From assembly GCA_946699065.1 (NCBI GenBank), contig CAMPDV010000386.1, positions 62,001 through 126,000 of the forward strand: a stretch of DNA of 64,000 nucleotides. Direction: 5' to 3'. The DNA is from Loxodes magnus (lineage: Eukaryota > Ciliophora > Karyorelictea > Loxodida > Loxodidae). Below, one piece after another: positions 8,115 through 57,264 of the stretch (position 1 is its first letter; each line of letters starts with the position of its first letter). Made by a program: the position numbers and the translations under genes. A model generated the notes under the pieces. The model worked only from the letters and a program-made list of their open reading frames with translations. It was not told the DNA's origin and ran no database searches.

Positions 8115-9524
8115 ATGGTAAGCAACGAAGATTTATGTCCTCTGTGCTAGAATAAGTATAATAAACTTATAAATGTTCCTAAAAGGCTATCATGCAAACA
8201 TATCTTATGCTAAAAATGTGTGAAGGATTAAATTCCTAGTTAGTAAATAAAGTGTTAGCTTTGCAATAATATCGAAACAAACAATCCTTTTAAACTTAAA
8301 ACGGAAATTTCTTTGCTTCTAGTTGAAGCGAAAGCTGATTAAAGCAATTAAAGCGATTTCTTAAACTTAAACTAAGAAGAAATGAAGAATCAATAATCTT
8401 TATAGCATCATTTATAACAAATGGACTTTATAAATTCAAACCCATAATTTTAAATTAAAATTCTAGACATGCAATACGAGAAAAACTTTAAGAACGTGCC
8501 ACTTCTTTTGTTTTATTTTACTCTATTATTTTAATAGAAAGAATTCTTATCAATCAAATAAAAATATTACGTTTTAATAAGGGGAAACAAGTGACCAAAA
8601 CCTCTAAAGTACAAGTCAGAATTCAATGAAATGGTTTTGAAATTATAAGTTGTAGTTTATTTTTCTTTTCTTGAGATAAAGGATTTTTAGCAAGCTGAAG
8701 AAATCATAAAATTATCCGAAACTTAATTTTACTAAAACCAAATTTGCAATAGAGATGATTTTAATGATTTTATTGCAAATCATGTGTAACTAGCTTCCAA
8801 ATTTACCTAACTAAGTGGCAATAACGGAGCATTGTTATAGCTTAATTCTAGCAATAGTAAATAATCCTAACTTCAAAGTATTTAAGATGCTTAAAATCCT
8901 TTTTTTGAAAATTTTAAATTTGTTTAATTTGTGATATTCGATGTTGCGAATACCGAATTATTTGAGAATAAATTTAGACACTACTTGAACATTTATCCAA
9001 AGATAATTGATGAAAAGATATATAAAGCAACAAAATAGTATTATTAGTGGGAATCTTAAGGCAGATTTATTAATTACAGAGCTACTTAAAACTAATGCAT
9101 TTTATATGGAGAATTGTGCAAGTTATAAAAATTTCTAATTCAAGTAGATCAAAATATTTATTTAATAGACTTATAAAATTCTAAGCAAAAAGATATTAAT
9201 ACTCTTTAAGAAACTAAAATAAAAAAAGAGTTAATCAACCATGAGAACTAATATGAATGATTCTGAAAAGATAATAATGGCAATATTAATTTTCTTGAAG
9301 AATTTATTTCTTAAGATATTGAGAAAAGTTTTATTGAAAATAAACCAAATTGATATTATACAGACTAAAATGGTGAAGTCAACGTTGATTTGATAAATAA
9401 AAAATGGTAGAATACAACCAAAAATGAAAGCAAATAGTTAGAAAGAAAGTTTAATTCACCAAACGGAATAGTTATGTTTGGTAGTTTCATCGATATTAAA
9501 AGTATAATGAAAACTCTAAATTGA
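8115..9524 (+). CDS. RING-finger and WWE-domain protein (putative PAR-reading E3 ubiquitin ligase)
   Basis: A 469-residue frame from ATG to TGA. Residues about 8-50 form a C3HC4 RING: CPLC, then SCKHILCQKC, then KCQLC, which fits C-x2-C ... C-x-H-x2-C-x2-C ... C-x2-C. Residues about 380-450 form a WWE domain: the EWFWKDNNG motif, then IEKSF, NWYYTDQNG, VDL, WQNTT and a basic LERKF end. Both Trp of EWFW and the Trp of NWYY are TGA codons (9258, 9264, 9351), so the domain is visible only under UGA=Trp. Known: RING plus WWE is the architecture of RNF146/Iduna, where WWE binds iso-ADP-ribose in poly(ADP-ribose) and RING ubiquitinates the modified protein. The 300-residue middle is Gln-rich and unrecognised. 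A PARP-domain protein is encoded at 57.7-61.1 kb. Function is inferred from architecture only. Confidence 0.82.
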
Positions 9525-10118
9525 GCACAGGAATTTCATCAAATTTAACTTTTACTAAATAATATCTTATTAAATATTTAGAAAAATTCATCAACCTTAT
9601 ACTTATTTAGTATTCAATTCCTTCTTTTATTTTTAAAATTAGCATTCGTTTACTTATATTTTTTAATTTAATACAATTATTACTTTTGAATTAATAACTT
9701 AAAACATTAAGTTCTAAATTAATGAAATTATAAGTCCGAAATCATTTAATAGAAATTACTAAAATAATAAATCTCATAAATGAAACAGTAAGAAATAGTT
9801 TGAAAATCAAATCAAATTTATAATAATTATCTCTAATTTTAAAATAAGATAGTGTCAAAAGGTAATGAGAGAGTTTTAAGATGCTTTTCTTAAGTTAAAT
9901 GTGCAATTCTATTTTCTCAACAACAATTCATTTTATTAGAACCTCATAAGCATTAGTTAAATTATTTAATCTAAAATACAATAATTAGATAAGCTATTTG
10001 AATTCAAATATAATTATAAAACTTAATAGACTTATATAATTTAATCATCTTTTATGGAGATTATTGCCTATACATTAAGTTTATTATATATTTAATTATT
10101 AATTAATTTAATTTAAAC
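9525..10118. other. AT-rich spacer
   Basis: Nothing recognisable lies between the RING-WWE gene and the GC-rich island. Confidence 0.5.
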
Positions 10119-10470
10119 AGGGTGGAAAGCCCTCTCCTTCGGATGCTGCTTGGAGGTTCAGAAAGGCAACAAAAAAATGAGCGTGGACGGAGGATAAATC
10201 GGAAGAAGAGAAATCAATAACAAGAGAAGGAAAATATGACAAGCTGGAGAAATCTGAATGCCAGGAGGAAACTTTCTTCATCATAGGTCGGGAAATGTAC
10301 CCGTATTCGCATATTGCATCCTATACTTTGGAAGGAAAAATTACAGGGACGTACCGCAGGAAGAGGAAACAAGGAAAGAGAGAAAAGAGAGACCTATAAA
10401 AAAATTTTCAACATTAAATAAAATTAATTTAAAGAACTGTACACCAACAAGAGTGCTACGCGCTCTATAA
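10119..10470. other. GC-rich island of unknown identity
   Basis: From the GGGTGGAAAGCCC stretch to about 10390 the sequence is visibly far richer in G/C, and purine-rich on this strand, than the flanking spacers. All frames were checked. One (+) frame gives a basic run with SECQEETFFIIGREMYPY, but there is no clear start, no recognised domain, and the island is not flanked by obvious repeats. It could be a structured noncoding RNA, an exon of an unrecognised gene, or a foreign/mobile fragment. It does not look like a tRNA, 5S rRNA or rRNA segment that I can recognise. Confidence 0.35.
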
Positions 10471-12209
10471 TCGAATTTATTTATTTATTTGCTTCCTTTA
10501 GATTTAAATTAGCACCATCAATGTATTAAATCTTTTTAAGATAAAAAGAAAAAAAAGAGAAAACATTGATTGTCTTAATAACTTTTTATTCAGCTTATAT
10601 GATAATATATAAATAACTTTGTCTTTCTAGAATTGTTTAAAAAGTTAAAGTAACGTTATGAACAAAATTTATGATTTAAGTTATCTTCTAAGTATGCTCA
10701 ATAATTTATCTATATCTTAAATATTTCTTTTATCGCAAATAAAAAGAAAGAATAATATGAAAATATAATAAATCTAATTTTTAATTAAATAGTATGCATT
10801 TAAATTTAATCATCATTTATGTTCTTTTTATTGTAAAAGGCAAAATCATTTTTTAAAGTTTCTGACTTTTTCTATTTTTAGAACTAAAGTTAATTTCATA
10901 TTTATCTATTTGAAAACTTTTATCAATTATGAATCTTTTTTCAAAAACTAAGTTAAATGTTTTATATTAATCTATAATGCAAATTAATAATTGTAAGACT
11001 TTAAAAATTATATTCAATAAAAATAGATAATTAGAGTATTCCATTTGGTAGAGTATTAAACAATCGCTTATTAGTTATTAACTAGTAATTATTTTATAAA
11101 AATATAGTCCAAATAATAATTTTAGAATTAGATCTTTATTACTTATACCGTTACTAAGCTTACTTAAAATGATTATATAAAATTAAAAACTTTAAATAGT
11201 TTTAATTTATTTTGTTTCGTTATAATTCAAAATAACCATTAGATCCCTATAAAATAATTTCTACAGAAGTATTCCTCATTTATATAAGCTAATATAAGCA
11301 TTATAAATATTATCTGATCTCTTGAATATTTAGATTTATTTACAGTTAGAAAAATGAATAATAATTTTTCTTTAATCAGTACTTTAACTTATATCATATG
11401 AAAGAAACTAGACTTTTAATCTAATTAGTTAGGATTTTCAATTAAATTATTTAAAATTATCTTATAAAAAATCTCTCTTATATTTCAAAGAAATGCAAGT
11501 TTATCTTATATTAATTAAACAAAAATTTATCTTTATTAATTTTTTGTAAGTTCACTTTTTGTAATTTTGTTGGTTAATCTTCTTTTAATATGCACTAATT
11601 AATTAGTGAAAATATACGAATAAGGCTTTATTTTTAGATTTTTTTAGTTAGCTTAACCTTTCTAAGAGCTTTTTTATTTAGTTATTAGTGATATAATTAT
11701 AAGAATAATTTTCTACATCAAGACATATATTATTTACAAATCTCTATATCAAGGTTAGTTTATAAGATATTACACTAAAATATTTTAACGAATCTTCATT
11801 TTTTTCTACTAAACTTAAAGTTTTACTTTTAGCATTATTTATATTAGTTTGCTTACAAATCAAACTTTTATAGACTTACTTTTATTTTAAATTTATTCTT
11901 ATCTACTAGATAAAAGCTTTTTAATCTAAGAAAATGTTAGCTAAGATAGAATAAAACTCTAAGAGACTTAATCATAATATTAGAATCTTCAAAAATAAGT
12001 TCTAATTTAAGTTATTTTAGCTTTGAAGAGTTACAAAGTATGAAAGTTAACCATTTGATAATTTGAAATTTGTCAATTACTTAGTTAAAAGTGCTTTAGG
12101 TTAAATAATAATCAACTGATTTTATTTTCTTGCTTGTATAAATTTTCTTAGTAGCCGTTTCTATTTTAAGAAACTTAATTTTCTTAATTAAATAAAAAGA
12201 ACTATAAAA
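10471..12209. other. AT-rich spacer upstream of IFT46
   Basis: I see no gene or structured element. It presumably contains the IFT46 promoter, but no motif can be assigned. Confidence 0.5.
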
Positions 12210-13451
12210 ATGGCTGAAAGCGGTTCTAGCTTTGAATAGGAATTTGATGGAGAAGATTAGGAAGAATAAGAATAAGAATAAGAGTAAGAATAGGAAGATG
12301 GAAGTGAATTTGAATTAGATAATGAAGGTGAGTAATCGTTTGAAGATAATCCACCTTAAAAAGCTCCACCAAAATAATACATGCCTTAATAGTAATAAGT
12401 ATAGCAAAAGCAATAAGTATAGATTAATCCTATTGGAATACAATAATAGCAAAAATAGCAATTGTAATAAATGCAAATGTAGAAATAATAATAACAAAGT
12501 TAGTAAGCTTAAAAAAAACCATAACCGCCTAAAAAAGATGCAGTCACTCCAGCAAAAGATTAATAAGTAGCCAAGGTAGAAAATTAACCTTTTGATGAAG
12601 CAGTTGAATTGTCTCATGGATCTGGCGAAGAAGTTACTTCTGAATCTGAAGAAGACAAGTAATAGGTATAGCAAGGGTAAAAAAAGAGTGGAGGATTCTA
12701 AGATGGAGAATCGAGTGAAGGTAGCGAAGAAGCTATTCCACCTGGAGGATATAATCCGGCTGATTATGCAAATTTGAATGTTGGTTCAGAAGTCTAGGAA
12801 CTATTTCAGTACATTAAACGATATAAAGTACATAATATTGATTTGGAAACAAAGATAAAATGTTTTATTCCAGAGTATATTCCTGCTGTTGGAGAAGTAG
12901 ATGCATTTTTGAAACCTGCAAGACCGGACAACTAAAAAGAGTTTCTTGGTTTAAATGTTTTAGATGAGCCAGCTTTGAATTAACATGATCCAACTATTTT
13001 AGAGCTTAAACTTTCTTAAGTTTTAAAACCAAAAAGAGCTGGAAACGAAAGTACATCTTAAATAGTTAGATCACTCGAATAAGCAGACAAAAATCCAAAA
13101 TAAATATAAAGATGGGTACAGTCAGTTAACGAAATTCATAATAATAAGCCAGCACCAACTGTTACATATTCAAGATAAATGCCTGATATAGATAATTTAA
13201 TGGAAGCCTGGCCTCCTGAGATTGAAGAAGCATTCAATAGTTTAAAGTTACCTACTCCTGATATTGACGTTGATTTACCTACTTATGCAACTATACTATG
13301 CAGTATTTTAGATATTCCTGTTTATAGACAATTACCTGGAAAATCTATCACGGAAAGTTTGCATGTTATGTTTACATTATATAGCGATTTCAAGGCTAAT
13401 CCACACTTCTAGAAAAACAAAATGGAAGAAGCTCAGAATATGTCTCCTTGA
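12210..13451 (+). CDS. IFT46: Intraflagellar transport protein 46
   Basis: A 413-residue, intron-free frame from ATG to TGA. Residues 1-175 are acidic and Gln-rich: an E/Q run, then a Gln/Lys-rich tract encoded largely by TAA and TAG, which is why the standard code shows only fragments. From about residue 178 the conserved IFT46 C-terminal domain is clear: PPGGYNPADYANLNV, ELFQYIKRYK, FIPEYIPAVGEVDAFLKPAR, LGLNVLDEP, SLEQADKNPKQIQRWV, MPDIDNLMEAWPPEIEEAF and ITESLHVMFTLYSDFKANPHF. Known: IFT46 is a core IFT-B1 subunit needed for ciliary assembly and for transport of outer dynein arms in Chlamydomonas. Length is near the family norm plus an expanded Gln-rich head. TGA directly after ...NMSP matches the expected C-terminus, supporting TGA as the stop. 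Confidence 0.96.
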
Positions 13452-16255
13452 AAATTTTGTGACTTAAAGTTTTTTTATTTTAATATTTCTAGTCTATATG
13501 CATCAAATTCAAAACTTATTAGTCTCTTCTATATTTACCATTATGCTTGATATTTTAATAGTTATTTTACTAAATTAAAGCTGATTTAGCTTTATATCCA
13601 AATTATCTATAATTAACTTTTTAGTAAGCTTAGTGATTTATCTAATAAAATATAAATAAAACTTAATTATGATCATTTGACTAATTTAATTTTACATATA
13701 CAAGCATATTTGCACTTATTATATTATACTTACTTATAATATACTCAACAATATTAAAAAATTGTTTCATCTTTTAATTTGCTAGGTTGAAATTGATTAA
13801 AGAAAGCAAGATATAATTATTAAACTTTTTATTTTATAGAAATTAGATAAGGAATACTTAGATATCTAGATATCTAGATATCTATATAACTATTTTAAAA
13901 CTGAGATATTTTATATTTATTTATGTTCTTAAAGATATTCTAAAAAAACTTTTATATATCTAGTTTATTTATATTTTTGACTGAAAGTTGTTATAATTTT
14001 ATTTAATTAAACTATATAATTTTTAGTATGCAATTTAATAATAAAAAGTTAAATCTATATAAAGAATAGTTATAAAATAAGAGCTTGGAGATTTAAAGCA
14101 CATTTTGTTTGAGTTATAGGAGTTTTAATTTACAATTAGGTTAGATTATTTATTTTTTCAAGCGAACTAGTAATATCTTTAATTCTATTTTTAGTGCTTT
14201 TATTTAAAAAGAATAAAGCTCCTTTCCTGATATTTATTCCCTTTCTTTCATTGTGTTTCTTCTTTTATATATGATTGAAATAATTATCAAAGCAAAAGCT
14301 TATCGTTAAAAAAATGATAGGATGCTTATTTTAGATTTTAATTGATTCTAAAATAATTAAAAATTGCCCTAAGCAAAAAATATTGTAGAAATCAACATGA
14401 ATTTAGAGTGATATCCTGTTTAAAATTAGCTCACTAATACCTCTATTTATATTATACTAATTATCTAAATTAGACTCAAATTTTTACTCAGTATTGCTAA
14501 TAAAATTAATTCATAGATAAGTTAAATAAATAATTAATTTCATTTCTATTCAGCTTTATCAAATATAATCTTAGCAATAATTTTATTTTTTTGCAAATGC
14601 TTGGGAAATAATTTTGAGAGATAAGTAGTATAAAATTGATAAAATTCTAAGATTAAATATTTTAAAAATATAAGAAAATATCTAAGTTTTATACATAAAA
14701 AGCTTGTATAATAAAATGTTATAATTCATAAAACTAAAGCTTTTAGAAATAAAGCTCTATTTTAATTGTTTGTCGATAAATTATAGAGATAAAAGAGAAT
14801 TAAATTTATTGTTTTAGTTAGAAAATTTAAATATAAATGATTGTGATTTAATTAATAAAAAGGTGTGAAATTACAATAGAATAATTTTAAGATTATATAG
14901 ATAATTAGGATACTAAAATTTCATTAAGTAAACTAAGCTAAGAAACTTCATGAAATTTACATTTTTTTATAGATTTTAAAAAGATTTTATCTTTCCAACT
15001 ATTTAATTTTAGCCTGAATAAATAAAAATTTAAATTTCTACAATAACTAAAATAAAGGATCACAGCCTAGAGATTCGCTCTTTATCATATTCCAAATTTT
15101 TTCTTAAACCTATCAAAGATTTAGAATAATTAAGAATATATTCTAAGGATTTATTAATAACTAGTTGTATTTAAAATTTATTGTTAGTAGGCAAACTTTG
15201 AATTGTTTCATTAAATATACTAAGCTATAAAATTAAAGTTTATTTTTTCTGTAAGCTAATTATTAAAATAAATAAACTAAAGTAACTCTATTCAACTATT
15301 CATTATAATATTACAGAGCTAGATAATTCTTAAATTTTTTATTTTAATAGTTTAAAAATAACTTCAATCTAAATTAAATTCTTTCAGTTTGCATGCAATC
15401 AAGGCAATCATAATTTAAGAGCATTTGATTCAAATAAAAGCTTTGCTAAGTTAATTTAAAACCAAATTGTTTATTATTAACAAAGAGCTCACAATATTTT
15501 TAAATTTAGATGTTTAATTATCTATATAATAGGATATAAGATTATACAAAGACTTAGAATCAAATACTAATAAATTTGAGAAGATATTGAATGTGTTTCT
15601 TAGAAGTTTATCATTTTTACGTTTTCAAAATAAATTATTTATAAATTATAAAAGTATCATTACTCACTTTTAATATATAATTGTATTTAATATGATGCTT
15701 TCTTTTAAAATACACAGCTTAGCATTAATAAATAAATGCAAGCAAAAGTTTAAATAACTTTAAGCTAGCAAAAAAGATTAATAGCTATATTAATAAAATT
15801 TGAAATAGCTCAGAGTTATAAAATGTATATCTCATATTTATTACAATTACTCTTAATTTAATTCGAGCAAATACTTTGTAACAATTACTTTTAACTTAAT
15901 TTAAAGAAATTTATTCTAAAGATCTTAAAGATGCTGCTTAAGAAATTTTAAATATCTGAATGAGTATCTACTCTACTTAAATTATACAGTCGTAATCTAA
16001 ATAATGTAGAAAGATACCTTAGATTTAATAGCATGCTGTAGTTAATTTTTATAAATGTATTTTAATAAAATTTATGATGTATAAGCTGAGATGAATATAT
16101 CAAATTATAATTATAGCTTTAAAAGCATTAAAATATTAATCTAATTCAATCTAATTACTGTTTATTTAGGAAATTCAAACGCCAATAAATTTTCAATATT
16201 ATCAGAGTTTTATACTTTAAATTATCGCACTTTTAGAAGGTTTATAAAGTAAGGA
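13452..16255. other. AT-rich spacer with a short GATATCTA repeat
   Basis: No gene seen. A few tandem GATATCTA units lie at about 13860-13885. The remainder is A/T-rich sequence without motifs. Confidence 0.5.
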
Positions 16256-16666
16256 ATGGAAAAAAAGGAATCAGCAGGAAAGCAAATTGATTAGAATCAA
16301 ATAGATTTTAAAATCGAGGATAAAGAATAAAATTAAGAAAAGAATTAGTCAAGCTCTTCAATCTAGAAGTAGAGTTCCGATAAAAAGGAAGCCTCATATT
16401 ATAGATGTTCTTTTGGTTGCATTTGGAAATGGATATTACTAGTTATTGCTTATACTATGCTCTATGGCTATTTTTTATTATTTACTTGGCTTTTATTATA
16501 TGCATGCACAGTTAATACACTTGGAAGTTTAATTACATTCTCTGTGATGATGATAATAACAATAACATTACTTGCAGGCAGCATATGGTATGGATCAACT
16601 TCATCATTACATTCACAGGTGTTGACCACATTTTAGAGTTCCATAGTAGGCGAGAAAAAGGTTTGA
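16256..16666 (+). CDS. Small membrane protein with two predicted TM helices, unknown function
   Basis: A 136-residue frame from ATG to TGA. Residues 1-45 are hydrophilic (Lys/Gln/Ser-rich). Then RCSFGCIWKW leads into a strongly hydrophobic segment around residues 55-80 (LLVIAYTMLYGYFLLFTWLL), and a second hydrophobic segment follows around 85-115. A short tail ends VGEKK-Val. C/G use is higher than in the flanks, which supports coding. The arrangement of a cytoplasmic head, a WKW boundary and a Tyr/Phe-rich helix is loosely like the N-terminus of P-type ATPase beta subunits, but there is no ectodomain, so I do not make that assignment. Confidence 0.6.
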
Positions 16667-20057: not shown

Positions 20058-20133
20058 TCTTGATGCTATTTATATTTAATTATCAATATCAAGCTTTAAA
20101 GACAAAAAATCTATTAAATTATACAATTTCCTT

Positions 20134-24128: not shown

Positions 24129-27100
24129 ATGAAAATAGTACTAGCTATCTTCCTTTTTATTTTTAGGTTTTATGCGAATTCTATGAAAATTGCAATAATA
24201 AGTTCCGCTCGTACTCCTTCATTTCTCTCAAATTTTTATCTATTTCAAATAGCTCAGATTCAATTTGAAAACTTAACCTTTTTTTAACCTATTCCATTTA
24301 AGATAGATTTTGCTAATTAGGGAATCGATTAAACCTTATGTTTAATTTAATAGCATAGAATACAAGTAATACTGGATATAAGTTTCGATATTTAGTTATC
24401 TAATATGATAAGTAAGAAGAATAGAAATGACTATATTCATTTAATTACTTATAGAACTAATGATAAGCTATTCTATGAAGATAATACTTACTAGATACTT
24501 CCTACTTATAGCTAAGAATCATAAGCTTTTATTTCCTTGTTTAAACACTTAGGCATGAGAAAAATATCTTTTGTTTATCAAACTGAAAATAGATTTTCAG
24601 CTCCTATATAAAATATTTTCAAGGATAGCTATGTTTTAGCTAGGACTACGTTAAATATTCCAGAAAATAGTAGATATGGTCTTGATTAGTCTTCTTGCAA
24701 TAATAGCTGAACTAAAGAAAAAATTATATAAGAGTTTGCTAAATCAATTAGAATTTATGGATCCCCTGTTATCTTATTATCTGCAGATATTTGCTGGCAA
24801 GCTTACATTTTGAATTTGGCTACTTATTTCTAGTTTACAAGAGAACAATACGCTTGGTTTCTGGGCTTAGAGTCTTCAAGTATTCTTTCTCAAGATATGA
24901 TATAAATTATACAGAAGAGTTCCAAACTTCCTCTAGAAATCTTATAAAATGGAATGGTGGGATTGACACCTTTACAGTATATAAGCAGAAACTACTTTGA
25001 ATTTAGCTTCTATTATATTAGATAAATTCTAGTTTTCTTGTATAAGCTTTAAATAATATCTCAGTAAGGAATAGAACATAATTATGTCTCTTTGTTTAAA
25101 CTATATAGAAGTCTAATCTTTAAAGGGAACTTACTTCTCTCTTCTTTTTCTGTTTTTAACTAGTAAAATGGGGAAAATGTTGAAATTTTCCAGATAATAA
25201 ACGGGAAAATATTTTAACTTGAAGAAATTTTGTATCCTGGACTTTCTAAAATCCCTCCTCCAGAAAAGTTAGTTATATAAATGAGCTATTCGAGTCAAAA
25301 AGAAGAATTCGATGGATCTCCAATATTTCAGCTCTTTCCTTTGTTTACTTCCTAGCTTCCTTGTGCAGTTGAATGAGTAAATGATTTAAAAATACTGTAG
25401 CATTATACTCTAGAAGCTAATGGAATATCTTACGGAAACAGAAAATGAGACGCTAATTTCACTGTAAATGCGCTTATAAAAAACTATTTTGAGTTAGGAA
25501 TAGCACATGCAGCTAGCTTTTTAATCACTAGTTTCGTTCCTTCCTATTACGTCATGTAAAAGTTAGGAATAGACATTCCTTATTTGACTGCGACTGATTA
25601 GGATATCTTAGCAGATAAGAAATAATATCCTCATGTTTTGATAAACTACTTATCATATCAGTCTATTACTGATATGTTTCTGATTTATCTTGAAAAACAA
25701 AAGTGATAAAAATTTGGGCTAATCATAGAAGCACTTTTGCCAGGAAACGTATACATGCATTAGAAAATTGTATCTTGGGCTCAAGAAACAGGTAGGTAAA
25801 TTCTGAATTCTAACGAAACAACTTTTGTAGAAGATAGATATAATCAAACTATATGGGATAATATAGCTAGTGAAATTATTCAAAAAGAGATAAGAATTAT
25901 AATCGCTTATCCTGCAATGACATCTATACCTGGTATTGCTAATAAACTTATTGAGTTGGGATTTTAGCCAGGAGATACCAATTTTTTAACTGTTTACTCT
26001 GCTAACTAAATTACAGCTTCAATAGCAGATCAGAAAACACTAGAGAATTCAAAAAAGATACTAAATGGAGCAGTTACCATTTAGTTGATAGAATATACAG
26101 GAGAAGTTGGGCAACAAATGTACGAAATGTAATATGAATGCAACCCCTTTGTTACACCTACTTGCTATTACATGGAATTTCCACTTATAATTGCAAAAGG
26201 AATAGAAAGTGCGATTTAATCTGGTGAGGATTATACAAACCCGTCCATTCTAATTAAAAACATTAGAAAGTAAAAATTTTAAGGATGTTCTGGATCAATA
26301 AAATTTAATTAGAAAGATAACTTCAGAGATAATCTTAATTTCTACTTTACAAATAATAATTACGATGCTAACTGGAATCTTACTTTGCATTATAGAACAG
26401 AATATTGCTAAACCTGCGCTATAGTATGAAGACAAAATGATGGAGTCATAGTTTGAAATGATAATACTACATAAATTCCAGATGATAGTTACTCTCTTTA
26501 TGATAATAAATGCGATTTTACTATAAGAAAAGTGAAAAGGTTTGAAAAGGGCTATTAGGTCTTGCAAATAGCAGTTATAGCCATCCTAATTTATAGCTTC
26601 ATAATTTTTATTGTAGGATTAAAGGTTTGAAAGAAATATAAATTAGAATATTTAACTCAAGAGAAATGAATAAGTAATGATGATCAAATCTACTTATTTT
26701 CTATGACAATCTAATTTTTATAGATAGTACTTATTGGACCTCATCTACAATATATAATTCCAGATTACATTTACTCTGTTATTAAAACTATCTCTTTTGA
26801 TATAGATGACTTATCACATTAGACTTTTTGAAGTTTGTATTATTTCACATGGTTAGTCATGATATTAACAATAATTTTTATTTTAGCTATTGTACTCTAA
26901 TTTGAGATTAGATTTCAAAAAAAATGCCCTATATTTAGATTTATAGGAAACCTATCTTTTAGAGCTTGCTCAACTTTGATAGATATATCCCTGCTTCCTA
27001 TAGTAATTATGCTATCTAAATCATTTTTGTGTCTCAAAGGAGTAGATTAAGATTTAAATTTTAATATTTCGTGATAAGAAAGCTTCCTAAAAAATGACTG

Positions 27101-28133
27101 CTCTATTCACTGCTTATCTTTTCTCCACGTTTAAAAGCTTTCATTATCATCAATCGGACTTGCATTTTATATTCCAGTAGTCTTATTTTTTAGACCAATC
27201 TTACAATTACTTCAAAATGACTTTTTGCATATTAAGTAGTAATTTGACTTTGTCATTACTCAAACTGAGTTGCAAATTATAACAGCTTTACTTAATCAAT
27301 CAATCGAAGAAGATCACTCTGAAATTTATTGGATAATCTATACTCTAGAAATGCTTTTAATCTCAGTCCTAATATACAGGAGAAAGCCTTTTACTTACTT
27401 AAGAATAAACTTCCTAAACTAAGTTGGATATTTTATGCTTTTTTTTGCCTCTTCCCTAATAACAGTTGCAAGCTTTTTTGATGAAAACAACAAAATAATT
27501 TTTCTTATAATCCTACTTGTTGGCTTAGCTTTAATCTTCATTATCTTTATTATAAAAATCAAAAATTACCCCATTCTCTTAAAGCAGCTTAAGCCTGACT
27601 TAATCTAATTGTTTAGATTTGCTTTTAAAATAAATGCAAAGATTGAACTTTTAAAGGATCATGTTGAGATATAAAATAAAAGAATGGAGATTATGAAAAG
27701 CATTTTGAGGTAAAATCTATCCAATGAATCCAATGTCTCACAAGTTTATAAGAACAGCCTAACAAGAAAATCCTTTTTAATAGCTATAGCAGATCAAGAG
27801 AAGGAATAAGAAAAAGCTAGTAATATAAAATAATAAACTGAAAAAAAAGAAATAGAAAATCCTCCTAATTAGATATAAAAAGATTAGCTAAGTACGATCA
27901 AAGAAAGATAGAATTATCAAGCTTAAACTGCCTTAAACAACACTAAAGTTTAGAATAAAACTTAGGAAAATCCGGAAATAAGTTTAAATAATTCCAAATT
28001 ATTAGATGAAACTTTTGAAATTCAATCACCATAAAAAATTAAACAAGTAGAAAGGCAAAATTTAGAAAAGCCATTAGATTAAAAGACAATCAGCTAAAAA
28101 AACAAACTAGGAGACAATAAAGAAATAAATTGA
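24129..28133 (+). CDS. Polytopic receptor with periplasmic-binding-like ectodomain, copy B (intact)
   Basis: An intron-free frame of 1334 residues, ATG to TGA, with no frameshift. Residues 1-18 form a signal peptide (MKIVLAIFLFIFRFYANS). Residues about 20-760 form a bilobed extracellular domain: strand-helix pattern KIAIISS at the start, VILDISF, VILLSADIC, and the late lobe IIIAYPAMTSIPGIANKLI followed by PGDTNFLTVYSAN, the texture of type I periplasmic-binding/ANF-receptor folds. A Cys linker (TEYCQTCAIVW ... NKCDF) precedes about eight hydrophobic helices (residues about 805-1150). After LLKQLKPDLIQLFRFAFKI comes a charged Gln/Lys/Asn-rich cytoplasmic tail. N-out topology is inferred. The architecture resembles class C GPCRs in outline, but the membrane domain shows no class C signature I recognise. 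TGA codes Trp repeatedly (e.g. AIVW-R, VIVW-N). Copies A and C align throughout. Confidence 0.88.
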
Positions 28134-29709: not shown

Positions 29710-31268
29710 TCACGACTACTAAGAATTTTCTGGATCGGACTCATTGCTTTGATCTTCAAGTTTTTCAGCGTTTTTTTGTTCAATATTTCCATTACTACTT
29801 TCCGCAATGTTCTAAGTTGTACTTCCAATAACTGCATTGTTATTGGCTATTGCATTGCTGATATTTTCACTATTGACATCATTATTTAAATTTCTTTGTT
29901 CTTGTTAACTATCAATGTCAAAGATTTCTTCTATTTGAAGTTCCTCTTCTTAACCATTTTCTTCTTCACAGCTTGAGTTTTTCCCTAGTTCATGATGGTT
30001 ATGTAAAAGATTGGTAGAATTTGGTTTTTAAGGAAGTTCTGTCATACTAAGAGGAAATCCAGAGTTTACTGGATGTAATTTCTAAGGTAAAGGCTCGTTA
30101 TCGGACGTAGTAGAACGAAAGCAAGCTGGCAAAAAATTTCAAGGTTTTTTTAAGGCAAAGGTAATCACTGTCCTGCCAACTTGAATGGCAATTTAATTCT
30201 AAGTATCTAAGGCAATAGGTCTCTTGATTTGAATTAAAGTACCAAACTTACTATTGTTATCTTCTAAGTAAAAGAATCTATAAAATTAAAATCTTACCCT
30301 TTACTAAGCTTAATGTTTGCATGCTATCTAGATACACTAATATCACTAATTCTTACGTCAGCATCATGTCCTCTACCTAATTTAATTGAATTCTTTAGAT
30401 TCATGCTAATAACATGAACTCCTCTAGAACTATTTTTATCTCTACACAGGGCTTCTAGGATTATATATTAAGAATTTGGTTTCTAGATTTCGAGTAATTC
30501 TATTATTTTTCCATCTAAACCTACTGAGTTTGGAAAAGGCCTTTTACAAAGTTCGCAATCAAGTGTTTTCCAATAAAAGGATATAGAATTATCTGATTAC
30601 CTAGTTGTAAGTCTATTTTTAAGCCACAATTACAAGCATTTTAAATGAATAAACTTCATTGTTCCTGCACATTTGCAAGGAGAAATGAGAGGGTTGTTTT
30701 ATTCATAATTATGTTCCAAGCAAATTCTACAAGGTAGTGTGTGAGTGTACTCTTTTTTGTTTGAAACTTATTTACTTGAAATCTTTCTACTATCTTCTGG
30801 TGGTTCTGTCTCAGTTCCAAGAGCTGATTATATAATTGAGCTAAGAGATTTTGGTGTAACACCAAGTTTTTCACTCTCTTCAGCTTAAATTTCTCTTACT
30901 CTCAATTTTACTCTCCCTAACTTTATTACATCACCTTCAGCTAATCGGTAACCTTTATTTACTCCGTTCTATTTTAAAGATCTAACAACAAGTCACAGTT
31001 TTTCTGTATTTTTACTATTTCCTTTTGGCTCTTGTACCATACTTATACTGAATAATCCTTCATGGGCGTTCAAAGACGCCAAATACTTGGCTCCTTCAGG
31101 TAAAGTCTTCTCAGAAAAAGGGTCTACAATCTAGATTTCGTTTTGATTCCTTATTAATTTACAGGTTTCTGTTGCCTTAAGAGAAGTTTTATGAACATGT
31201 CTAGATTCATAGTCAAATAAACCATGAGAATCCCTAGACCAAGTGACTGCCTTCATAACAATCTGCAT
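29710..31268 (-). CDS. FHA / RING-CH / FHA protein (putative phospho-dependent E3 ligase)
   Basis: Two exons (31268-30298 and 30277-29710) joined across a 20-nt intron give 512 residues. Residues about 92-127 look like a degenerate FHA (KLWLVVRSLKQNGVNKGYRL, DVIKLGRVKLRV; the KLW Trp is TGA). Residues about 180-241 form a C4HC3 RING-CH finger: CRIC, then SPCKCAGTMKFIHLKCLQLWL, then CELC. Residues about 290-345 form a canonical FHA: SIKLGRGHDADVRISDISVS, then RQHA, then FFYLEDNNSKFGT. The intron splits the FHA exactly at K-G/FFYLED. The tail is acidic, Asn/Gln-rich and disordered, ending ...NSQQS at TGA. Known: RING-CH fingers recruit E2 enzymes and FHA binds phosphothreonine. The combination is a soluble, ciliate-typical architecture, unlike metazoan membrane MARCH ligases. 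The substrate is unknown. Confidence 0.85.
30278..30297 (-). other. 20-nt intron in the FHA/RING-CH gene
   Basis: On the minus strand it reads GTAAGATTTTAATTTTATAG. Removal restores the conserved FHA sequence around HANIKLSKG-FFYLED; unspliced, the frame breaks. Confidence 0.92.
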
Positions 31269-33920: not shown

Positions 33921-34691
33921 TCAAGCATTTTCCTTCTCCTATTCTTTCTTTACGTTTTAGGGGAAAAACGGAACCAAAGATTGAGGGAAAGTATTTTTAC
34001 AAGAGTAATTTCAAACCATTGTCAGCATTTCAATCATATCTTTATTATTAAATTAATTAGAGTAAATTCCAAGTTGCTTCATGCAATCTTTAAGCTTTAA
34101 ATCATCTAGCAAACTCCAATTAGGCATCTCTTCTAAATTGTTTTAGCCTTTATTAATATTTATCATGCTCAAATTTTAACGTGAGGCTTGTTTTTTAATT
34201 TTCTATTTCTATCCTTTATTATTATTCCTTTAATTTTAACTCTCTTTCTTGACCTAAGAGTTTCCGTAATTTTTTTATATATTGCGATTCAAAAATAGTT
34301 AAGAACTATAATTGATATATCTTTTTCCTGTTACTTTCTCCATATATTAATTATTAAAATCATCTTTTTATCTTCTTTAAGACTTCAAATCACTTTAAGC
34401 TATTTTCTTGCTATATATTTGTTTTTATTAGCATAACTTAGTATGATTTAACTAAGATCTAATAGTCATATTCTTTAAATTAGTACCACAATGCTCACAA
34501 ATTTCTTATTCTTATTCTTATATTTTCTACATCTTTGCTAGGATTATTTTATAACAATTATTCACTTAAAATACAATATTTTCATTAGTCTATTCAATCC
34601 TAAATTTTTAAATTAAAAATCAAATTAAAAACTTAAATTGCTATAGTTATATAACTATCTCCTCTTTTTTTTCACCGAATATATCATCCAT
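33921..34691 (-). CDS. SLX4-like structure-specific nuclease scaffold (compact)
   Basis: A 256-residue frame from ATG (MDDIFGEKKEE) to TGA. Residues about 66-85 form a UBZ4/Rad18-type zinc finger: CEHCGTNLKNMTIRSQLNHTKLC, i.e. C-x2-C ... H-x3-C spacing. A Lys/Gln/Asn-rich linker follows. Residues about 188-235 match the C-terminal SLX4 conserved region, which begins with a MP-x-W/Y motif: MPNWSLLDDLKLKDCMKQLG, then NNKDMIEMLTMVW-NY, where the family-typical Trp is encoded by TGA. Known: SLX4 is the scaffold that binds SLX1 through this C-terminal domain for Holliday-junction and flap processing. The protein lacks the BTB and long linkers of animal SLX4. The sole in-frame alternative splice (a 33-nt GT..AG near 34582-34614) would not change the assignment. 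The identification rests on motif memory, so confidence is moderate. Confidence 0.55.
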
Positions 34692-42537: not shown

Positions 42538-43099
42538 GAATAGACTCAGATCCATTTTACATTAAAGACTTTATTTATTTTAGATAGAGGCTTGTAATTC
42601 TTTGAAATAAATAATAATCATTAGTTATTTTTAATATTTTTAGAAAATTTAATTGTTTATTATTAAAAGAATGTTTATTAAACTCTTATTTAAATGCTTG
42701 TATCTTATATTAAAATAAGATAGATTTAATATGTTTTATAATAAATATACTAAACGATCTTTATTTTATTCCTAGTAATTTAACTTTAGTAATTACTATT
42801 AAGATATTAATTTTAATATCAAGTCTGTTATGTAGTATTTTTTTATACTTTTGGTTATATCACGATATCTATCTCATACTTTACTAATAAATTTAAAAGC
42901 TTTATTAATAATAAATTAGAATCTATCATTATGATGATGAAGCTTAATCAATTAAAGTATTTTATAAGTCAAATATATTGAAAATATGTATATTATTTAG
43001 ATGAGAGATCTTGACTTAGTTTTAAAGAGATTCTAAAATCTAATATAAGTTTAATAATTTATTAATATAAAAATTATTGCTTTAGGGATACTAAAGTCA
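42538..43099. other. AT-rich spacer between convergent genes
   Basis: 3' flanks of the F-box/LRR and Ap4A phosphorylase genes; nothing else seen. Confidence 0.5.
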
Positions 43100-44101
43100 T
43101 CAATCTTGGTTAGAGAAAGCTGCATTTTTTAGAACATTTAAAAATCCATGATATCTGAGCTTTTAGAGATGCTCTTCATTTTTAACAACTATTATTCCAG
43201 CGTAGCATAAAGCTCCCAAACTTATTTACTCAAAAGCTAAACTTTTACTGCGAGGCACTAACATCATTCAATCATTCATTAGCAAAAGATTGTAAGGTAT
43301 TAATGCTACTTTCTGTTTCTCAAGAAACTATTCAAAACTATTTTCTGTTACATGCTCCTTAATGATTTTTAAATGTGAGCAAAGAGATATATAACTTTTA
43401 ACCAAGTCCTTAGAATTCTTTATATCAAGCTTCATCAATGCATGCTTAAATTGAAAGAGAGGTAAAGTGAATACTTAGAATGCTTACTACAAATCAACTA
43501 TACTCTAAACATAATTTTATATTGGGATTTATTTTCTTTCTAAGTTATGAAGAGGAATTATTTAAATATGCTTATGTTGCTAACTTGCACCTGCAACTTT
43601 ACCTCCGTTATAAAAACCTATCGCCTTAAGTTCTTTAATCACCCTCCAGGTATTAAAAAGATCATTTTCATTTAGATAATTTTCTTAACTTTCAAACTAA
43701 GTAGTTGTAATTAAAAGATGCTACCTTGTTAATTAGTATTTGTTAAATAATAAGCGATGAGTTTATGAAAGGTCACAAATAAATCTTCCTGTCTCATATG
43801 GAGGAAGAAATGGATTTATCTTTCCCTAATCTTTTTTGGTTTATACAATAGAAGCAGATTTAATAGCTAAAAACTTTATATTTTAATCTTCAATTTCATG
43901 TCAACTTTCGCTAAGTTATTCTACAAATAATGAAGAATTATTTTACTCTAATTTGTCAATTAATGTTTATAAATTTGAATTGCCAAAGCTTCTCTGTAAA
44001 CTGTTTTTCTTACTAAGATAATTAAATGCTATATTTGCTGCCTAAGCCTTTTATCTTGTGCTGATTGATCTTCAATTTATTACTATATTTTTAAGTTCCA
44101 T
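43100..44101 (-). CDS. Ap4A phosphorylase / ATP adenylyltransferase
   Basis: A 333-residue, intron-free frame from ATG, ending in tandem TGA TGA. Family landmarks in order: NPFLPPYE, then RQHLLITTTQFESQ, then the catalytic histidine motif GASQQHKHIQIIPL at about residues 168-180 (H-x-H-x-Q of the HIT superfamily), then LLMNDWMMLVPRSKS, and the C-terminal domain LGALCYAGIIVVKNEEHL. The conserved Trp of NDWMMLVPRS is a TGA codon at residue 278, direct evidence that UGA is Trp. Known reaction: Ap4A + phosphate gives ADP + ATP (yeast Apa1/Apa2 type, EC 2.7.7.53), a cytosolic enzyme controlling dinucleoside polyphosphates. Length matches the family. Confidence 0.93.
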
Positions 44102-49027: not shown

Positions 49028-49114
49028 AATGCTTAGTTGAAGATCGATCTATAAAGGAAAGTTTACATTATAAATATGAAAGCTTAAAGAAGTTTTGATT
49101 TAATAAGATCAAAA

Positions 49115-50431
49115 TCACACTTCTAAATATTAATATGGAATTTATTCATGAGATATTCTTTAGCAAATTAAGATAATAAAAAACTGAATAGAAGGGATTT
49201 AAATTAATAATTAATAAAGTCTAATAAAATGTTAAGTGGAGTTGAAGATGAAATCCCAAAAGGGGGAGGTAACACCGAATTTTATGTTTCCATCAGTATG
49301 AAAGTGGTGCTCTAAGTGCCATTTTTTAATAAAGTTTAAAAATTTTGTTGGAATTTGAAAATGATGAGCACTGTAATGCCAAACATCATAAACCGTATAT
49401 CCAAAAAAGTAACCTGCTAAAACAGCGTTCCATAAATTCCCGAAGATAAGCTTACTTAAAAAATAAAAAAAGCAAGCGAATGGAATACCTGCTGCAGGAG
49501 GAAATACTAACTTGTTTTCATCCATTGGAAACATATGATGGATACCATGAAGAGTAAAATGCAAAATATATCAGAATTTATTTTAAGGCATTCATACTTC
49601 ACAGTGGAAAAGGAATCTATGAAGTAAATATTCTAAGAGAGTTCATAAAACTATTCCAAAAATAAGGGATATGGCAGTCTCTGTTTAATTATTTTAAATC
49701 AGAGACAAATGGACAAAATAACTTGAAATAGGAATTCACATTAAAGGAATTACCCACCATTTTGTTTAGGCGAAGTATGTATCCAAAAATTTGTTATCAA
49801 AATAAATGCAATTGACATCTTAGGGCTTACTAGTCATTTCTACGTATTCTTTGATTGAAAGGTCTACTGTTAAAAGCTGTCAGAACATTCCTTTATTTAA
49901 TTCAATCTTTTATAACGTATTTTCTTACTTTCCTTTATTTTCACCGATCTTTTGATTGAGTTCTCCGATTTTATATTTCATTAATTGCTGGTCCGCATTA
50001 GACGAGTGATCAGCTTCTTTGTAGGCCTCTGTCATATCTTTAGCTCCTCCCAAAAAATCTACGAAACTTTAATCTCCTCCAGGATGTTTTTTTGCGAAAT
50101 CTGAAATGTCAATTATATCATTTCCATACAAAACCCAGCCATCTTAAAGTGTTTTGTGCTTGGCAACTTCCTCTTTAGTGAAAAATCCAGATTAATTGTC
50201 TTAAACAAGCTCTCCAATTTTCATTTTTTATATCAATTTCAAAGCATCCTCACTGTGATTGACCTCTTTAAATACCTGAGTTATATCCTTGCCATAAAAA
50301 GAATCGAATTATTAAGAACCCCCAGGATGTTTAAAGTTAGTAATATCTATAACATCTTTTTAATTTCAGAGTACCCATCCATTCTCTTTGGTGTTATGCT
50401 TGCTAAGCTATTCCTCCGTTATTTTGTCCAT
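49115..50431 (-). CDS. FA2H: Fatty acid 2-hydroxylase with two tandem cytochrome b5 domains
   Basis: Starts MDKITEEQLSKHN. Residues about 5-77 form one cytochrome b5 domain (ITNFKHPGGS, haem His 35 and His 59 of NHSED). Residues about 83-155 form a second (FAKKHPGGDQSFVDFLGGA, His 116 and His 142 of DHSSN). The membrane di-iron hydroxylase follows: LLEYLLHRFLFH, TLHGIHHMFP, DVWHYSAHHF and KKWHLEHHFH supply the histidine clusters among hydrophobic helices, ending GVTSPFWDFIFNST. Known: Scs7/FA2H 2-hydroxylates the acyl chain of ceramides in the ER; family members carry one b5 domain, so the duplication is unusual. The family-like sequence ends at residue 399, where a TAA follows (49232). The first in-frame TGA gives 438 residues with a 39-residue unlike tail. 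Confidence 0.92.
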
Positions 50432-51742: not shown

Positions 51743-51822
51743 GACAGCGTGGCCGAGTGGTCTAAGGCGCTAGCTTTAGGCGCTAGTCTTTCGGGGCGTG
51801 GGTTCAAATCCCACCGCTGTCA
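51743..51822 (+). tRNA. tRNA-Leu (anticodon UAG)
   Basis: Acceptor arm GACAGCG pairs with CGCTGTC and discriminator A; no CCA is encoded. The D arm is GCCGAGTGG...AAGGC. The anticodon stem CTAGC/GCTAG encloses loop TTTAGGC with anticodon TAG at 51777-51779. A variable arm precedes the T arm GTGGG-TTCAAAT-CCCAC. It contains internal A- and B-box promoter sequences typical of RNA polymerase III genes. The anticodon decodes CUA Leu; it is not a suppressor of UAG. Confidence 0.97.
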
Positions 51823-51827
51823 TTTTT
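51823..51827 (+). terminator. RNA polymerase III terminator
   Basis: A TTTTT run directly follows the tRNA discriminator base. Confidence 0.85.
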
Positions 51828-53187
51828 ATGATTTGATTTTTCTTTTAAAATAAGTATGCTAAGTCATATTGCTTAAATTGATAATTATAATTTTAATATA
51901 CAAAGAAAATTTAAAAAGTATAGCATGGTTTGAATCCACTTAGCATGAATTATGTTAATTAAAGAACATTTTAATAGTTTTAATTTTTTAATTTTAGAAC
52001 TTTATCTATTGAAATTGATTTATATCATATAATTAATTTTAGCTGCTTTCCACTTTAGTTTATTTCATTTACCTTAAAGTAATTACACACCTTATTAAAA
52101 ATAAAAAAGGTTTCTCTCGAAATTTTTTTTGTTAAATCGAAACTTTTAAAAGTTTTTATTATCTATTAATACATCTCTATTTTTCTCTACATTTCGCTCT
52201 TCCAACTTAATCTTCAATAGCATTTACTCATAATCTTATCTCTTCTCATTTTGAGAGAAATGATTGTTAATTTTAAGGTTTTGAAATAACCTACCAATAT
52301 ATAACTTATTTTAGATACTCACACCTTAATACTTGTTAATTCCCTATCTTAAGTTTTTTTTAATTAATAATTAAATTTTTAATTTAGCTTAAGATGATAA
52401 ATAGCAAAAAAAGAATTAAAAGAATTATAATTATTAAATTTATCTAGATAGCTCTATAACTAACTAATCAATTTTAATTTTCAAAGTTTTATAATTTTCA
52501 ACAGTTAGTCATTTTAAAAACTTTATAAAACCACAAAAGCTTTAGAAACTTTTAAAAGGGTAAGAAAGAAACAAATTATACTTTTATTTATCCTTAAAGC
52601 TTTTTATTCAAAGTAGTTAACTTTTTGCTTTTCCTTATGAAATTTAAAAATAATAAAAATCTTAAAATAGCTAAAATAGCTAAAATAGCGCATAATATCC
52701 AACTAATCAGCTTGTTTAAATTAAAAAATATAAACAATTCCAATTTCCTACTTAAAACAATCTTAAATACATTAATAATTTAAATTATACATCTAGACTC
52801 TAGCATCTTAGTAGAATTTTAGTAAGCTTTGTTTATTCAATAATGAGTCTCCTTTAATTTCTTAAGATATTAGTCTGCCTTTAATTGATCATAGCTATTC
52901 ATATAATTAATGATGCCATTAAATATTTTAAATCGGATTTTTAGATTTTAAGTTTAGTTTTCTGAAAGGGTGAAATTGGTGGGTTCAAACATGATAGAAG
53001 TTAGTAATTTAGATTTTTGTATATATTTTATAAGTTTTTTATTTGTAAGGTTTGAGATAAATTAATATGATTTAGATATAATTTTACCTTGAAATATATA
53101 AATAATTATATTTGTAATTTGACTATTAAAAATTTTTAAATTAAGTAATTAAGTGTAAAATGTTCTTAACTAATAGAATAAGCATTT
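51828..53187. other. AT-rich spacer with AAAATAGCT repeats
   Basis: A short tandem of AAAATAGCT units lies near 52663-52690. No gene seen. Confidence 0.5.
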
Positions 53188-56100
53188 TCAGATTACTTCG
53201 TCTTAGTTTTCTAGAAATTTATCTTTTTTATTGTTTAAGGATTGACTATCTCTTTCTTGATCCTCTTATATATTTTACTTCATAAAGTTTTATTACAACA
53301 CTTAATTCTATCTTTCTACACTTAAGTTACTTTATCGATCTCGATTTTCATTTGTTTTATTTTAATCACTTACCTTTAGATTTTTTTGAGTTGCTTTATT
53401 TTCATCGAATAGTTCTATAATTTACATACTTTAGTTTAAGTTTGAATTATTTAAAATATTAGTAATTTCCATTGATTAGCCACTTTCTGCTTTTAAATTA
53501 TCTTAATTTTTTCCTTTCATTTTTTCTTGTACGATTTCTAAATCCTTGACGCCATTTTCCCATTCTTCATTGTCTATTTCACTTTAAATATCTAAATTTT
53601 TTATTTAAATTAAGCTTTGCTATCTTACTTAAAGAAGTATCGCCTTTAGCTTTTTTTGCTAGGCAGTTTCTGATTTTTCAACATTTTAATAAAGATTTTT
53701 TCTCATTAAACTAAGTCTTCTCTGCTAAGTTTTAATATGTTCTGTCAACAAAGAAACGCTTGCCCAAGGTCTAAAAGCAAATCTGAAAAGTCTTATCAAA
53801 TCAGGCTTGAGCTATTTTAAAAGATTGGGAAAACGTTTCTAATAAATGCTTCCTATAATAATAATGATAGCTGAGCCTATTGAGTATATAATTAGCAGAA
53901 TCATTTGAGAGTTATTTAAAACTTAAATAACTGAGATGATTAATGAGGTATAAAATATCATTATTAAAGAAATAAACACCAAAAAGTTTATCTTCATAAA
54001 AGTGAAAGGCTTTACTTTGTAAATTCAAAAGGCAAATATTATTATTAAGAAGGAGTAAATGAAACTGTGGTAGTTTTCGTATTTTTCCTTTGCTAGTTTA
54101 TTTAATACAATTAACAAAATCTGGAAGTATGATTTTATTATCATAAACTTAGGTTGATACTTAATGTGTAGATATTCATGCAGATCTTATCAGTGTGGCT
54201 ATGAAAGAATGACTATTGGTAAATAGATTCATAAAACAATACAAGACAGAGTAAAGGCGATTGTATGAAATTGAGAGAAACAGCTTTTTGAACAATCTGA
54301 CATCAGTAAACTTTCACTTCATTCGAGTTAAAAGTCAAGATTTTCATCTCTTCCATAAAGGCACTAGAAAGGTTCTAATAAAACATAACAAACTGGCAAA
54401 AACATGATTTCAGTCAGTACTAGAGACAAATTAAAAGATAGATTTCCTATTTTTCTCATAAAGAAAAATTTATTTTCGAAGATAATTTCAAACCTAAAGA
54501 AAAAAGCAAAAGCAAAAATGATGGTAACAAAAGCAATTATCACACTTAAATAAAATATCGATCAAAACACCTCAATTGGAAAATTAAAGCCAATTATATC
54601 TAGTACGCAAGCTTTTATTAAAAAATCCACTTTTTAAGTAAATAAATCTGAAAGATCTGGTCCAACAGCTAAAATTTATAGCAAGTTTATGATTAATAAA
54701 AAGGTAAATAATTAATCTTCATTTGAAAGTCAAACTTCTTTAACTAAATTTAGATGTTTTCTTTTCTGTCAAATTCTATATCCAGCAATTGTAATAATAA
54801 GAGTATAAATTAGAATTATTAACATTCCGATCAAGTTTAATTGATATCCTTTTTTGAATTCTTTTACTTTTCGTTCAGAAAAATCGCAGTTTTCATTATA
54901 AATAGGAAACATATCTGAAGGAGTCTGAGTTGTATTATCATTTCAAAGTGGTGAAGTCTTTAGGAAAGTTCAAACAATAGCACATGTTGGACAGTATTCA
55001 AGATATGGTAGTAACTATAAGTTTCATTCTGAATCATATACATTGTTAATGAAATAAAAATTTAAATCTCCTCTAAAAGTGTTACTCTATTAAAACTTTA
55101 CGTTTCCACTACATCCTACAAATTTATTAAGTCTCATGCTTCTTGCTAAACTTTGAGGGTTTGAATAATCTTAGCCTTAATTGATGCAATTTGAAATTCC
55201 ATGAGCTATTATAAGAGTTTCTTCTACGTAGTAACATGATGAAATTTGAATGTCCAAGCAATTAGTTTGTATTTCTTTTATCTTTTATCCTTCCTCTCCA
55301 ATGTACTCTATTGGTGTTATAGTAATTGATCCTTGCAAAAGTCTTTTTATCTTCTATAATTGTTTAGGGTCATCAGCTGAATTTTCAACTACGTTAGCCG
55401 TATATAAAATAATAAAATTAGTATCACCTGACTCTCATCCAATTTTCATTAATTGGGTGCTAACTGATTTAATTACATTTATAGCAGGAAAAGCTAGAAT
55501 TATTTTTATTTCCCGTTGCATTATTTATCAAGCTATCTTATCGTAATAATCTTAATCGTATGTAATAGCATTAGTGGTAAAAGTAGTTTCATTGGTATTA
55601 AGGATGTTTTTATTGTTTTATTAGGCTCATTATTTGATTTAGTTATGAACTTTCAAGTTAGAAGGTTCTATTTCTTCGAAAAATAATCCAAAGCTATTTC
55701 ATTTATTTTTCTAAGTGTATTTAATGTACATATCTCCAAAGAACTTCCAAGAGATATAATTATTAAAAACATTTGAGTGCTCTTAAATGTTCTGCAGTTA
55801 GTCTTCTCTACTAATATATGTGTATGGAATTATCACATTCATTGCTTTTAACACATAATAAGCCGGCAGTCAACTTGATATCACTAAGCTTCCAAAATGG
55901 GCAACTCCTATTTAGAAGTAGTTTTCTATAAATACCTATAAAGTATAACTAATATTGTATCTCAATCCTCCATAAGAAAGAGGATTAGCTCTTATCAAAT
56001 AGTTACTGAGCAGGCTTTTATCTTTATTTATATAATCAATGAAGCAAGGAATATGATGAGGAGGAATTGTAATCACCATATAAGATACTTGGCCATATGG

Positions 56101-57264
56101 CTCTTTATCATTAGTAGAGTAAGACATTTAAATCGTAAGTTAATCAGGCGGAGGGATGGAGCTAGGGCCAGGATATATAATTGATGATTTTTGAGCAATA
56201 TTATTGTTAACTATTTAATAAACCTCTATAAGCTCTTTGTTCTATATATTATAAACTGAAAACTCTGCTATAATCTGTCTATTTTGATTAAAGAATAAGC
56301 TTTGATATATTTTGAAAAACTCAGGATAAGTTTTGTCCAAGTTGAAATCTCTAAATTAATTGATATAATCTATGAATTTTAAGGTTCTTAAAGCATAATA
56401 TGCAGTTAGTTCCAAATAGTTTCCTGGAATAAATTCTTTTGGTGTTAAAGCGATCATTCCGTTATCTAGAATGCTTAAATGAATCTTGGAATTTTCTTAA
56501 ACCAACTAAGTTATTTCAGCTTTTATTAAGTTTGATGATTCTAAGCCTATTACCCATGCATACTAACTTCCCGCCATTTAGTAAAATGTTGCTAGGTTTA
56601 AAATAAAGGCCTATCAGCAAACATCCGCTTGCATTAAGATAGTGGAAGATCCATAAATTCTGATAGCTTTAGGAACTTCATTGAACAGCCTATTTTGGAT
56701 TTAAGTATTTTGACATTGCTTTTAATTAAAGCCATAATAAGAATTTAGTGGAATATTAACTGAAGTACTTATTCTTATTCTACTAAGATCGAAATATTCG
56801 CTTGGTTTATAAAACCTCTTCTCCTACTAGCTTAAGTAAGATATTTTTGTAAGATTTAAAAAGTGAAATAGAGTTTGCAGAGCCACACCTTCTTACTGAT
56901 AGCTTGGCATTATTTAGTAAGCATTTTGGATTTAAAGTTATTTATCGCTTCTATAGGCAATAAAGCAAAGGCATAGCTTACTTAACTAACTAATTCTTTG
57001 TGTGTAAAAGTGATTGAAGCTAATATCAAGAATGATTTAAATGTCTAAAACTCTTATTTTAGTTTCAATTTCGTTAAGTTAAAAGTCTTAATTCTCTAAG
57101 TATAAAGGAATGGGTTAAAAGTTAGTTTATTCAAACTTACTCGAGTAAATTTGGTAGGTTAAAACATCTGAAATGTAAGGAATTGTATGTGGAGAACTTA
57201 CTATGAGTACATTCAGGGATTCAGTTTTAAAAAATACAGCGAGGAGTATAATCAAATGCAGCAT
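53188..57264 (-). CDS. Polytopic receptor with periplasmic-binding-like ectodomain, copy C (intact)
   Basis: A 1358-residue frame without frameshift. I choose ATG 57264 because it starts directly with a signal peptide (MLHLIILLAVFFKTES); an in-frame ATG at 57333 would add 23 residues. The ectodomain shares VLIVSSPHTIPYISD, IYGSSTILMQADVCQQAF, LALTPKEFIPGNYLELTAYY-type blocks and the GDTNFIILYTANVVEN strand with copies A and B, followed by the Cys linker and about eight membrane helices. These include IAFVTIIFAFAFFFRFEI, which fixes the correct frame of the damaged helix in copy A. The conserved juxtamembrane block LKPDLIRLFRFAF leads into a Gln/Asn/Glu-rich tail ending at TGA. It lies on the opposite strand from A and B and is divergent from the RBR/PARP gene. 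Ligand and signalling output are unknown. Confidence 0.87.

Follow-up and report, generated by a model that had tools for sequence, protein, structure and literature searches.

The closest described systems are genetic codes in which codons that terminate translation in the standard code are used as sense codons. NCBI table 27 is the code given for karyorelicts including Loxodes magnus, with UAA and UAG encoding Gln and UGA meaning either Trp or the only stop (PMC11441545). According to that account, UGA is read as Trp when it lies far enough 5' of the poly(A) tail, and in L. magnus transcripts coding UGA (as well as coding UAA) is depleted over approximately 20 codons before the stop (PMC11441545). 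Parduczia sp. is reported with the same table (PMC4967479). In Condylostoma magnum (table 28), all 64 codons are sense codons and all three of UAA, UAG and UGA also terminate (PMC4967479). Outside the ciliates, Blastocrithidia reads UGA as Trp through a tRNA-Trp(CCA) with an anticodon stem of 4 bp, uses UAR for Glu and UAA as stop, and carries a Ser70Gly substitution in the release factor eRF1 that is linked to UGA read-through (PMC12153298). A tRNA-Trp(CCA) with a 4-bp stem has also been identified in Loxodes (PMC13092985).

We analyzed a stretch of 64,000 nucleotides from the L. magnus assembly (positions 62,001–126,000 of contig CAMPDV010000386.1, C386 in our numbering; hereafter the window), together with the genome of 705,730,643 bases in 7843 contigs. 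We are very confident that the window is nuclear DNA of the karyorelict L. magnus, with the table 27 code and the decoding scheme proposed below. The original prediction, made from the window alone, held that UAA and UAG encode Gln and that UGA is both Trp and stop, as in karyorelict ciliates. Each of the three meanings (UAA/UAG as Gln, UGA as Trp inside genes, UGA as terminator) is supported, having passed tests that did not assume it, and the prediction was borne out by masked alignments, conserved gene ends and tRNA genes. The assignments are those of table 27, and no difference was found from the code as described for L. magnus and Parduczia (PMC11441545; PMC4967479). The reading of an ambiguous code is correct here, but the code is already known for this species, so that the present result adds confirmation. 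Our evidence comprises DNA sequence and alignments. Unsupervised hidden Markov models of codon usage, run with the stops masked, found coding stretches as well as their antisense shadows and served for orientation only, not for counts. In the second run one random stretch (L028, C124:32108-42107) was called wholly coding. This 10-kb stretch has a GC content of 44%, against 20–30% in the other 19 sampled stretches.

In 14 hand-picked coding blocks of the window (6043 codons), we counted 339 TAA, 137 TAG and 49 TGA codons in frame, compared to 119 CAA, 31 CAG and 28 TGG. The in-frame stop codons of the window genes are more than a chance occurrence, with shares of 5.61% (TAA), 2.27% (TAG) and 0.81% (TGA) of the codons in these blocks. 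The last value compares with a UGA share of 0.120% given for Parduczia (PMC4967479).

To read the meaning of these codons, TGA, TAA and TAG were masked as X and the translations aligned to solved homologues of eRF1, the Scs7-like protein, dynein, IFT46, Apa2 and PARP15; the pooled counts leave out the final alignment blocks of IFT46 and Apa2. Of the 8 cells opposite TGA, 5 held W and the remaining three M, A and F; opposite TGG, W stood in 12 of 18. This agrees with the prediction that TGA occupies Trp columns. The Ap4A phosphorylase (reverse strand) provides the example that had been singled out: the masked codon at 43268..43270, in NDwMMLVPRS, does face the W of yeast Apa2 (KKWICVVPRS). In the Scs7-like protein (49550..50428, reverse strand), which has two cytochrome b5 domains and a fatty-acid hydroxylase domain, the TGA codons at 49738, 49645 and 49594 face Trp, those at 49882 and 49573 face M and A, respectively, and that at 50368 is unaligned. 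A tRNA-Leu gene with anticodon UAG is located nearby (51743-51822, forward strand). In the dynein heavy chain, the TGA in wLSAFTYPT faces a W of the homologue. Among eight kinase loci, the site DIwSCG has TGA in one locus and TGG in 7/7 others. In another kinase locus, the residue opposite a TGA is W in 1/7, the other six cells being E (3), R, Q and TAA.

Two further Trp assignments were only partly upheld. Both TGA codons in YEwFw (9258 and 9264, within 9258..9266, forward strand) are present as predicted, in a RING-like protein (8115-9533), but the WWE domain in which they were placed scores 17 bits, below the Pfam cut-off of 21.1 (E 0.008 with a shorter piece and 0.058 with a longer one), and the RING matches of this protein are also below the curated cut-offs. 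Likewise, the TGA in the C-terminal motif called SLX4-like (34011..34013, reverse strand; codon at 34013) is where it was said to be, but the family assignment is without Pfam support, as the piece has no Pfam match to SLX4.

Three receptor-like paralogues could be aligned to each other. The first (1..3265, forward strand), which begins at the edge of the window or outside it, had no hit in Pfam at E values up to 0.01 over positions 1-1998; the second lies at 25156..28133 (forward strand) and the third, without a PDB match up to E 1, at 53188..57223 (reverse strand). Their proposed terminal TGA codons are at 3263, 28131 and 53190-53188, respectively. In 50 cells of the alignment a TGA is paired with a codon of another row: 24 times with TGA, twice with another stop codon and 24 times with a sense codon. 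The sense residues are W (10), Y (4), F (3), K (2) and five singletons, so that the Trp said to be common to the receptors is found opposite TGA in 10 of 24 sense cells. Taken with the homologue alignments, internal UGA mostly sits where Trp belongs.

The same codon is found at the ends of window genes, and the internal and terminal TGA codons that the prediction named (in the phosphorylase, the EWFW motif, the SLX4-like motif, the receptors and the gene ends) are all present, with the coordinates it gave correct. IFT46 (12210..13451, forward strand; Pfam IFT46_B_C with E 8.4e-85, PDB match with E 6e-71 when stops are masked) contains 34 TAA and 14 TAG in frame and no internal TGA, and ends at TGA 13449-13451. 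The Ap4A phosphorylase has its proposed end at a tandem TGA TGA (43097..43102, reverse strand; codons at 43102 and 43099), and its ATP_transf domain reaches profile position 94/95 approximately 4 codons 5' of it. The PARP-domain protein (59147..61069, forward strand; Pfam PARP) has its proposed terminal TGA at 61067; another TGA at 61010, 19 codons 5' of that stop and within the domain, faces F rather than W. The claim that these families end at TGA can be judged for these three proteins, and there it stands; in the fourth protein named, with RINGv and FHA domains in Pfam (29710..31265, reverse strand), the C-terminus is uninformative and the terminal TGA at 29712-29710 is a proposal.

How, then, are sense and stop UGA told apart? 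Neighbouring bases could mainly set the meaning, rather than the distance to the 3' end of the mRNA. In the window blocks A follows 24 of 49 internal TGA codons and 7 of 28 TGG codons, a small difference with too few codons to decide. However, all four bases occur after sense UGA in these blocks, and the depletion of coding UGA (and UAA) over approximately 20 codons before the stop in published transcripts fits an effect of position (PMC11441545). We therefore regard a code set by the adjacent bases as unlikely. Under the preferred reading, UGA would terminate when it is near the poly(A) tail, as proposed in the literature (PMC11441545).

We then searched the genome for the decoding components. 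With the RF00005 model, 63 of 42,786 candidates were scored, mostly with one identical score, and tRNAs were for that reason sought by patterns instead. A pattern for tRNA-Trp(CCA) gave 126 genome matches with 0 in the control; among the matches listed (100 of 126) these form arrays on contigs C67 and C148, with two more on C110. The arrays are tandem (C67:482321-491201 and C148:155462-168941) and repeat about every 187 and 241 bases. In 13 of 15 copies read, the anticodon stem is reduced to 4 bp by a broken top pair (A27-C43 in 12, T27-C43 in 1). Both copies on C110 (L036 and L037) retain a 5-bp anticodon stem but have mismatches in the T-stem; a separate pattern for tRNA-Trp with a 5-bp stem recovers, within its gap limits, one of these two known copies. 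As a 4-bp tRNA-Trp has been reported for Loxodes, this feature is in print too (PMC13092985).

The simplest reader of UGA would be a cognate tRNA-Trp(UCA), either encoded in the nucleus or produced by editing, and our search for it covered one narrow pattern. That pattern is the twin of the CCA pattern and gave 0 genome matches against 126, and with the 4-bp-stem tRNA-Trp(CCA) already identified in Loxodes (PMC13092985) we consider a UCA reader very improbable. The question of the tRNA-Trp raised with the prediction is thus partly answered: tRNA-Trp(UCA) was not found with this pattern, and the genome contains numerous copies of a tRNA-Trp(CCA) with a 4-bp stem. Internal UGA may accordingly be read by this multicopy, near-cognate tRNA-Trp(CCA), which has lost the top pair of its anticodon stem.

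The release factor may contribute as well. Two eRF1 genes (L010 and L011) are located on contig C196, approximately 35 kb apart. They encode RAQNIKS where human eRF1 has TASNIKS, and they have Ala at the position that we take to be Ser70 of the human protein. The same position is substituted in Blastocrithidia, there by Gly (PMC12153298), and by analogy an eRF1 with Ala at this position may help UGA read-through. The best-scoring match to the eRF1_1 profile (L009) is presumably pelota, as neither NIKS nor PPNG occurs in the reading frames inspected, and it was left out of the eRF1 set.

Termination was assessed at conserved gene ends. A pattern for the end of histone H4 followed by TGA gave 9 matches in the genome and 0 in a reversed-pattern control; two of the nine were read and both are H4. 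The same pattern followed by TAA or TAG gave a single match, which on reading was not H4. Both eRF1 copies have 436 codons without an internal TGA and end at TGA, and in the dynein heavy chain a terminal TGA directly follows the C-terminal domain. The prediction that UGA terminates is thereby confirmed at the nine H4-type ends, two eRF1 genes, dynein, Ap4A phosphorylase and IFT46. Neither TAA nor TAG was found at the end of any conserved protein tested (H4, eRF1, dynein, Ap4A phosphorylase, IFT46 and PARP), so that UGA alone appears to be kept as stop, although TAA may rarely be used.

In having all 64 codons as sense codons, the code resembles that of Condylostoma magnum, but there all three codons also terminate, whereas here TGA alone is found at the conserved ends tested (PMC4967479). 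The H4 pattern gave 9 ends at TGA and none at TAR, the sole TAR match being something other than H4. UGA is moreover described as the only stop (PMC11441545). Both points make a code of the Condylostoma type highly improbable. In its favor, rare use of this kind may occur: Seah and colleagues reportedly noted in 2022 that UAA may serve as the stop in a small minority of transcripts in karyorelicts.

In the pooled alignments to solved homologues, TAA and TAG faced Gln in 21 of 80 cells, near the rate for CAA and CAG (10 of 34) and in line with the prediction that they fill Gln positions. By codon, Q was found opposite TAA in 18/59, TAG in 3/21, CAA in 5/22 and CAG in 5/12. UAA and UAG thus occupy Gln positions with about the same frequency as CAA and CAG. 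The catalytic glutamine of the GGQ motif is encoded by TAA in both eRF1 copies, and the glutamine of NIQG in histone H4 is TAA in one of the two H4 genes read. For TAG the column evidence is thin (3/21), with E and T (4/21 each) both commoner than Q opposite this codon, and its assignment mainly rests on the tRNA with a CUA anticodon.

Such tRNAs, for which the prediction had suggested a search, were found in the assembly with both anticodons. A pattern for tRNAs with UUA or CUA anticodons gave 275 genome matches; since the control gave 23, some of these are chance matches. One UUA and one CUA gene were read; each scores as a tRNA, and ARAGORN labels them by anticodon as tRNA-Stop and tRNA-Pyl. 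For comparison, a pattern for tRNAs with UUG or CUG anticodons gave 215 matches and 0 in the control. Comparing the commonest strings of the 3' half, the UUA tRNA is 2 bases from the UUG tRNA and the CUA tRNA 4 bases from the CUG tRNA. From their anticodons and general background, we take the UUG and CUG tRNAs, and their UUA and CUA lookalikes, to be tRNA-Gln. By these sequence criteria the genome holds many predicted tRNA genes with UUA and CUA anticodons that resemble its own tRNA-Gln.

The use of UGA for Trp, with a tRNA-Trp(CCA) of 4-bp stem, is shared with Blastocrithidia, but UAR is Glu and UAA the stop in that organism, against Gln and UGA here (PMC12153298). A reading of UAR as Glu was not found in L. 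magnus, because TAA faces Q over E (18 versus 7, n = 59) and the UUA and CUA tRNAs resemble tRNA-Gln; for TAG the corresponding counts are 3 and 4 (n = 21). That the in-frame stops stem from pseudogenes or assembly errors, for which a large and repeat-rich genome might be invoked, is next to impossible, as they fall on specific amino-acid columns of the conserved eRF1, H4, IFT46 and dynein, and 135 of the 136 kinase matches scored contain them.

The share of UGA among Trp codons differs strongly between genes. It is 28/38 in the receptors (window 1-1776, 25158-26846 and 54514-57222) and 1/44 in dynein (L023:2228-10000; Fisher p 1.7e-12), bearing in mind that dynein, like the eight best-scoring kinase loci, is not a random draw with respect to this question. 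The numbers of TGA and TGG codons are 0 and 8 in the two eRF1 copies, 2 and 20 in the eight kinase domains and 0 and 2 in IFT46; they are 6 and 2 in PARP, 4 and 2 in the RING-like protein, 6 and 4 in the Scs7-like protein and 2 and 1 in the Ap4A phosphorylase. The share of UAR among Gln codons is similar in receptors (106/152, 70%) and dynein (114/155, 74%), and varies little over nine gene sets, from 60 to 83% (45/75 in the kinases to 20/24 in the Ap4A phosphorylase). For AAR, GAR and TTR codons, the receptors have an A-ending share of 0.761 and dynein one of 0.744.

Across the kinase matches (the best 136 of 5592 candidates), TGA is present in 91 and TAA or TAG in 135. In this set of non-independent paralogues, lower-scoring matches hold more TGA codons (Spearman 0.29, p 0.0005), a trend that UAR does not share (-0.11, p 0.2). 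Among Dynein_C matches, counted by eye, 32 of 46 contain TGA and 45 of 46 TAA or TAG.

We give even odds to the proposal that, with UAR fully reassigned and UGA still the stop, the tolerance of sense UGA differs from one gene to the next. If this holds in general, release factor and near-cognate tRNA-Trp would compete at every sense UGA, and conserved or heavily translated genes would avoid the codon. The uneven share of UGA among Trp codons is possibly a new observation; the terms "codon usage" and "highly expressed" are absent from the main text of PMC11441545, the only paper to which this statement applies.

A codon that is both a sense codon and the sole stop challenges the notion of fixed codon meanings. 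Uneven use of UGA beside the much more even use of UAR offers a cheap, genome-wide handle on what this ambiguity costs the organism.
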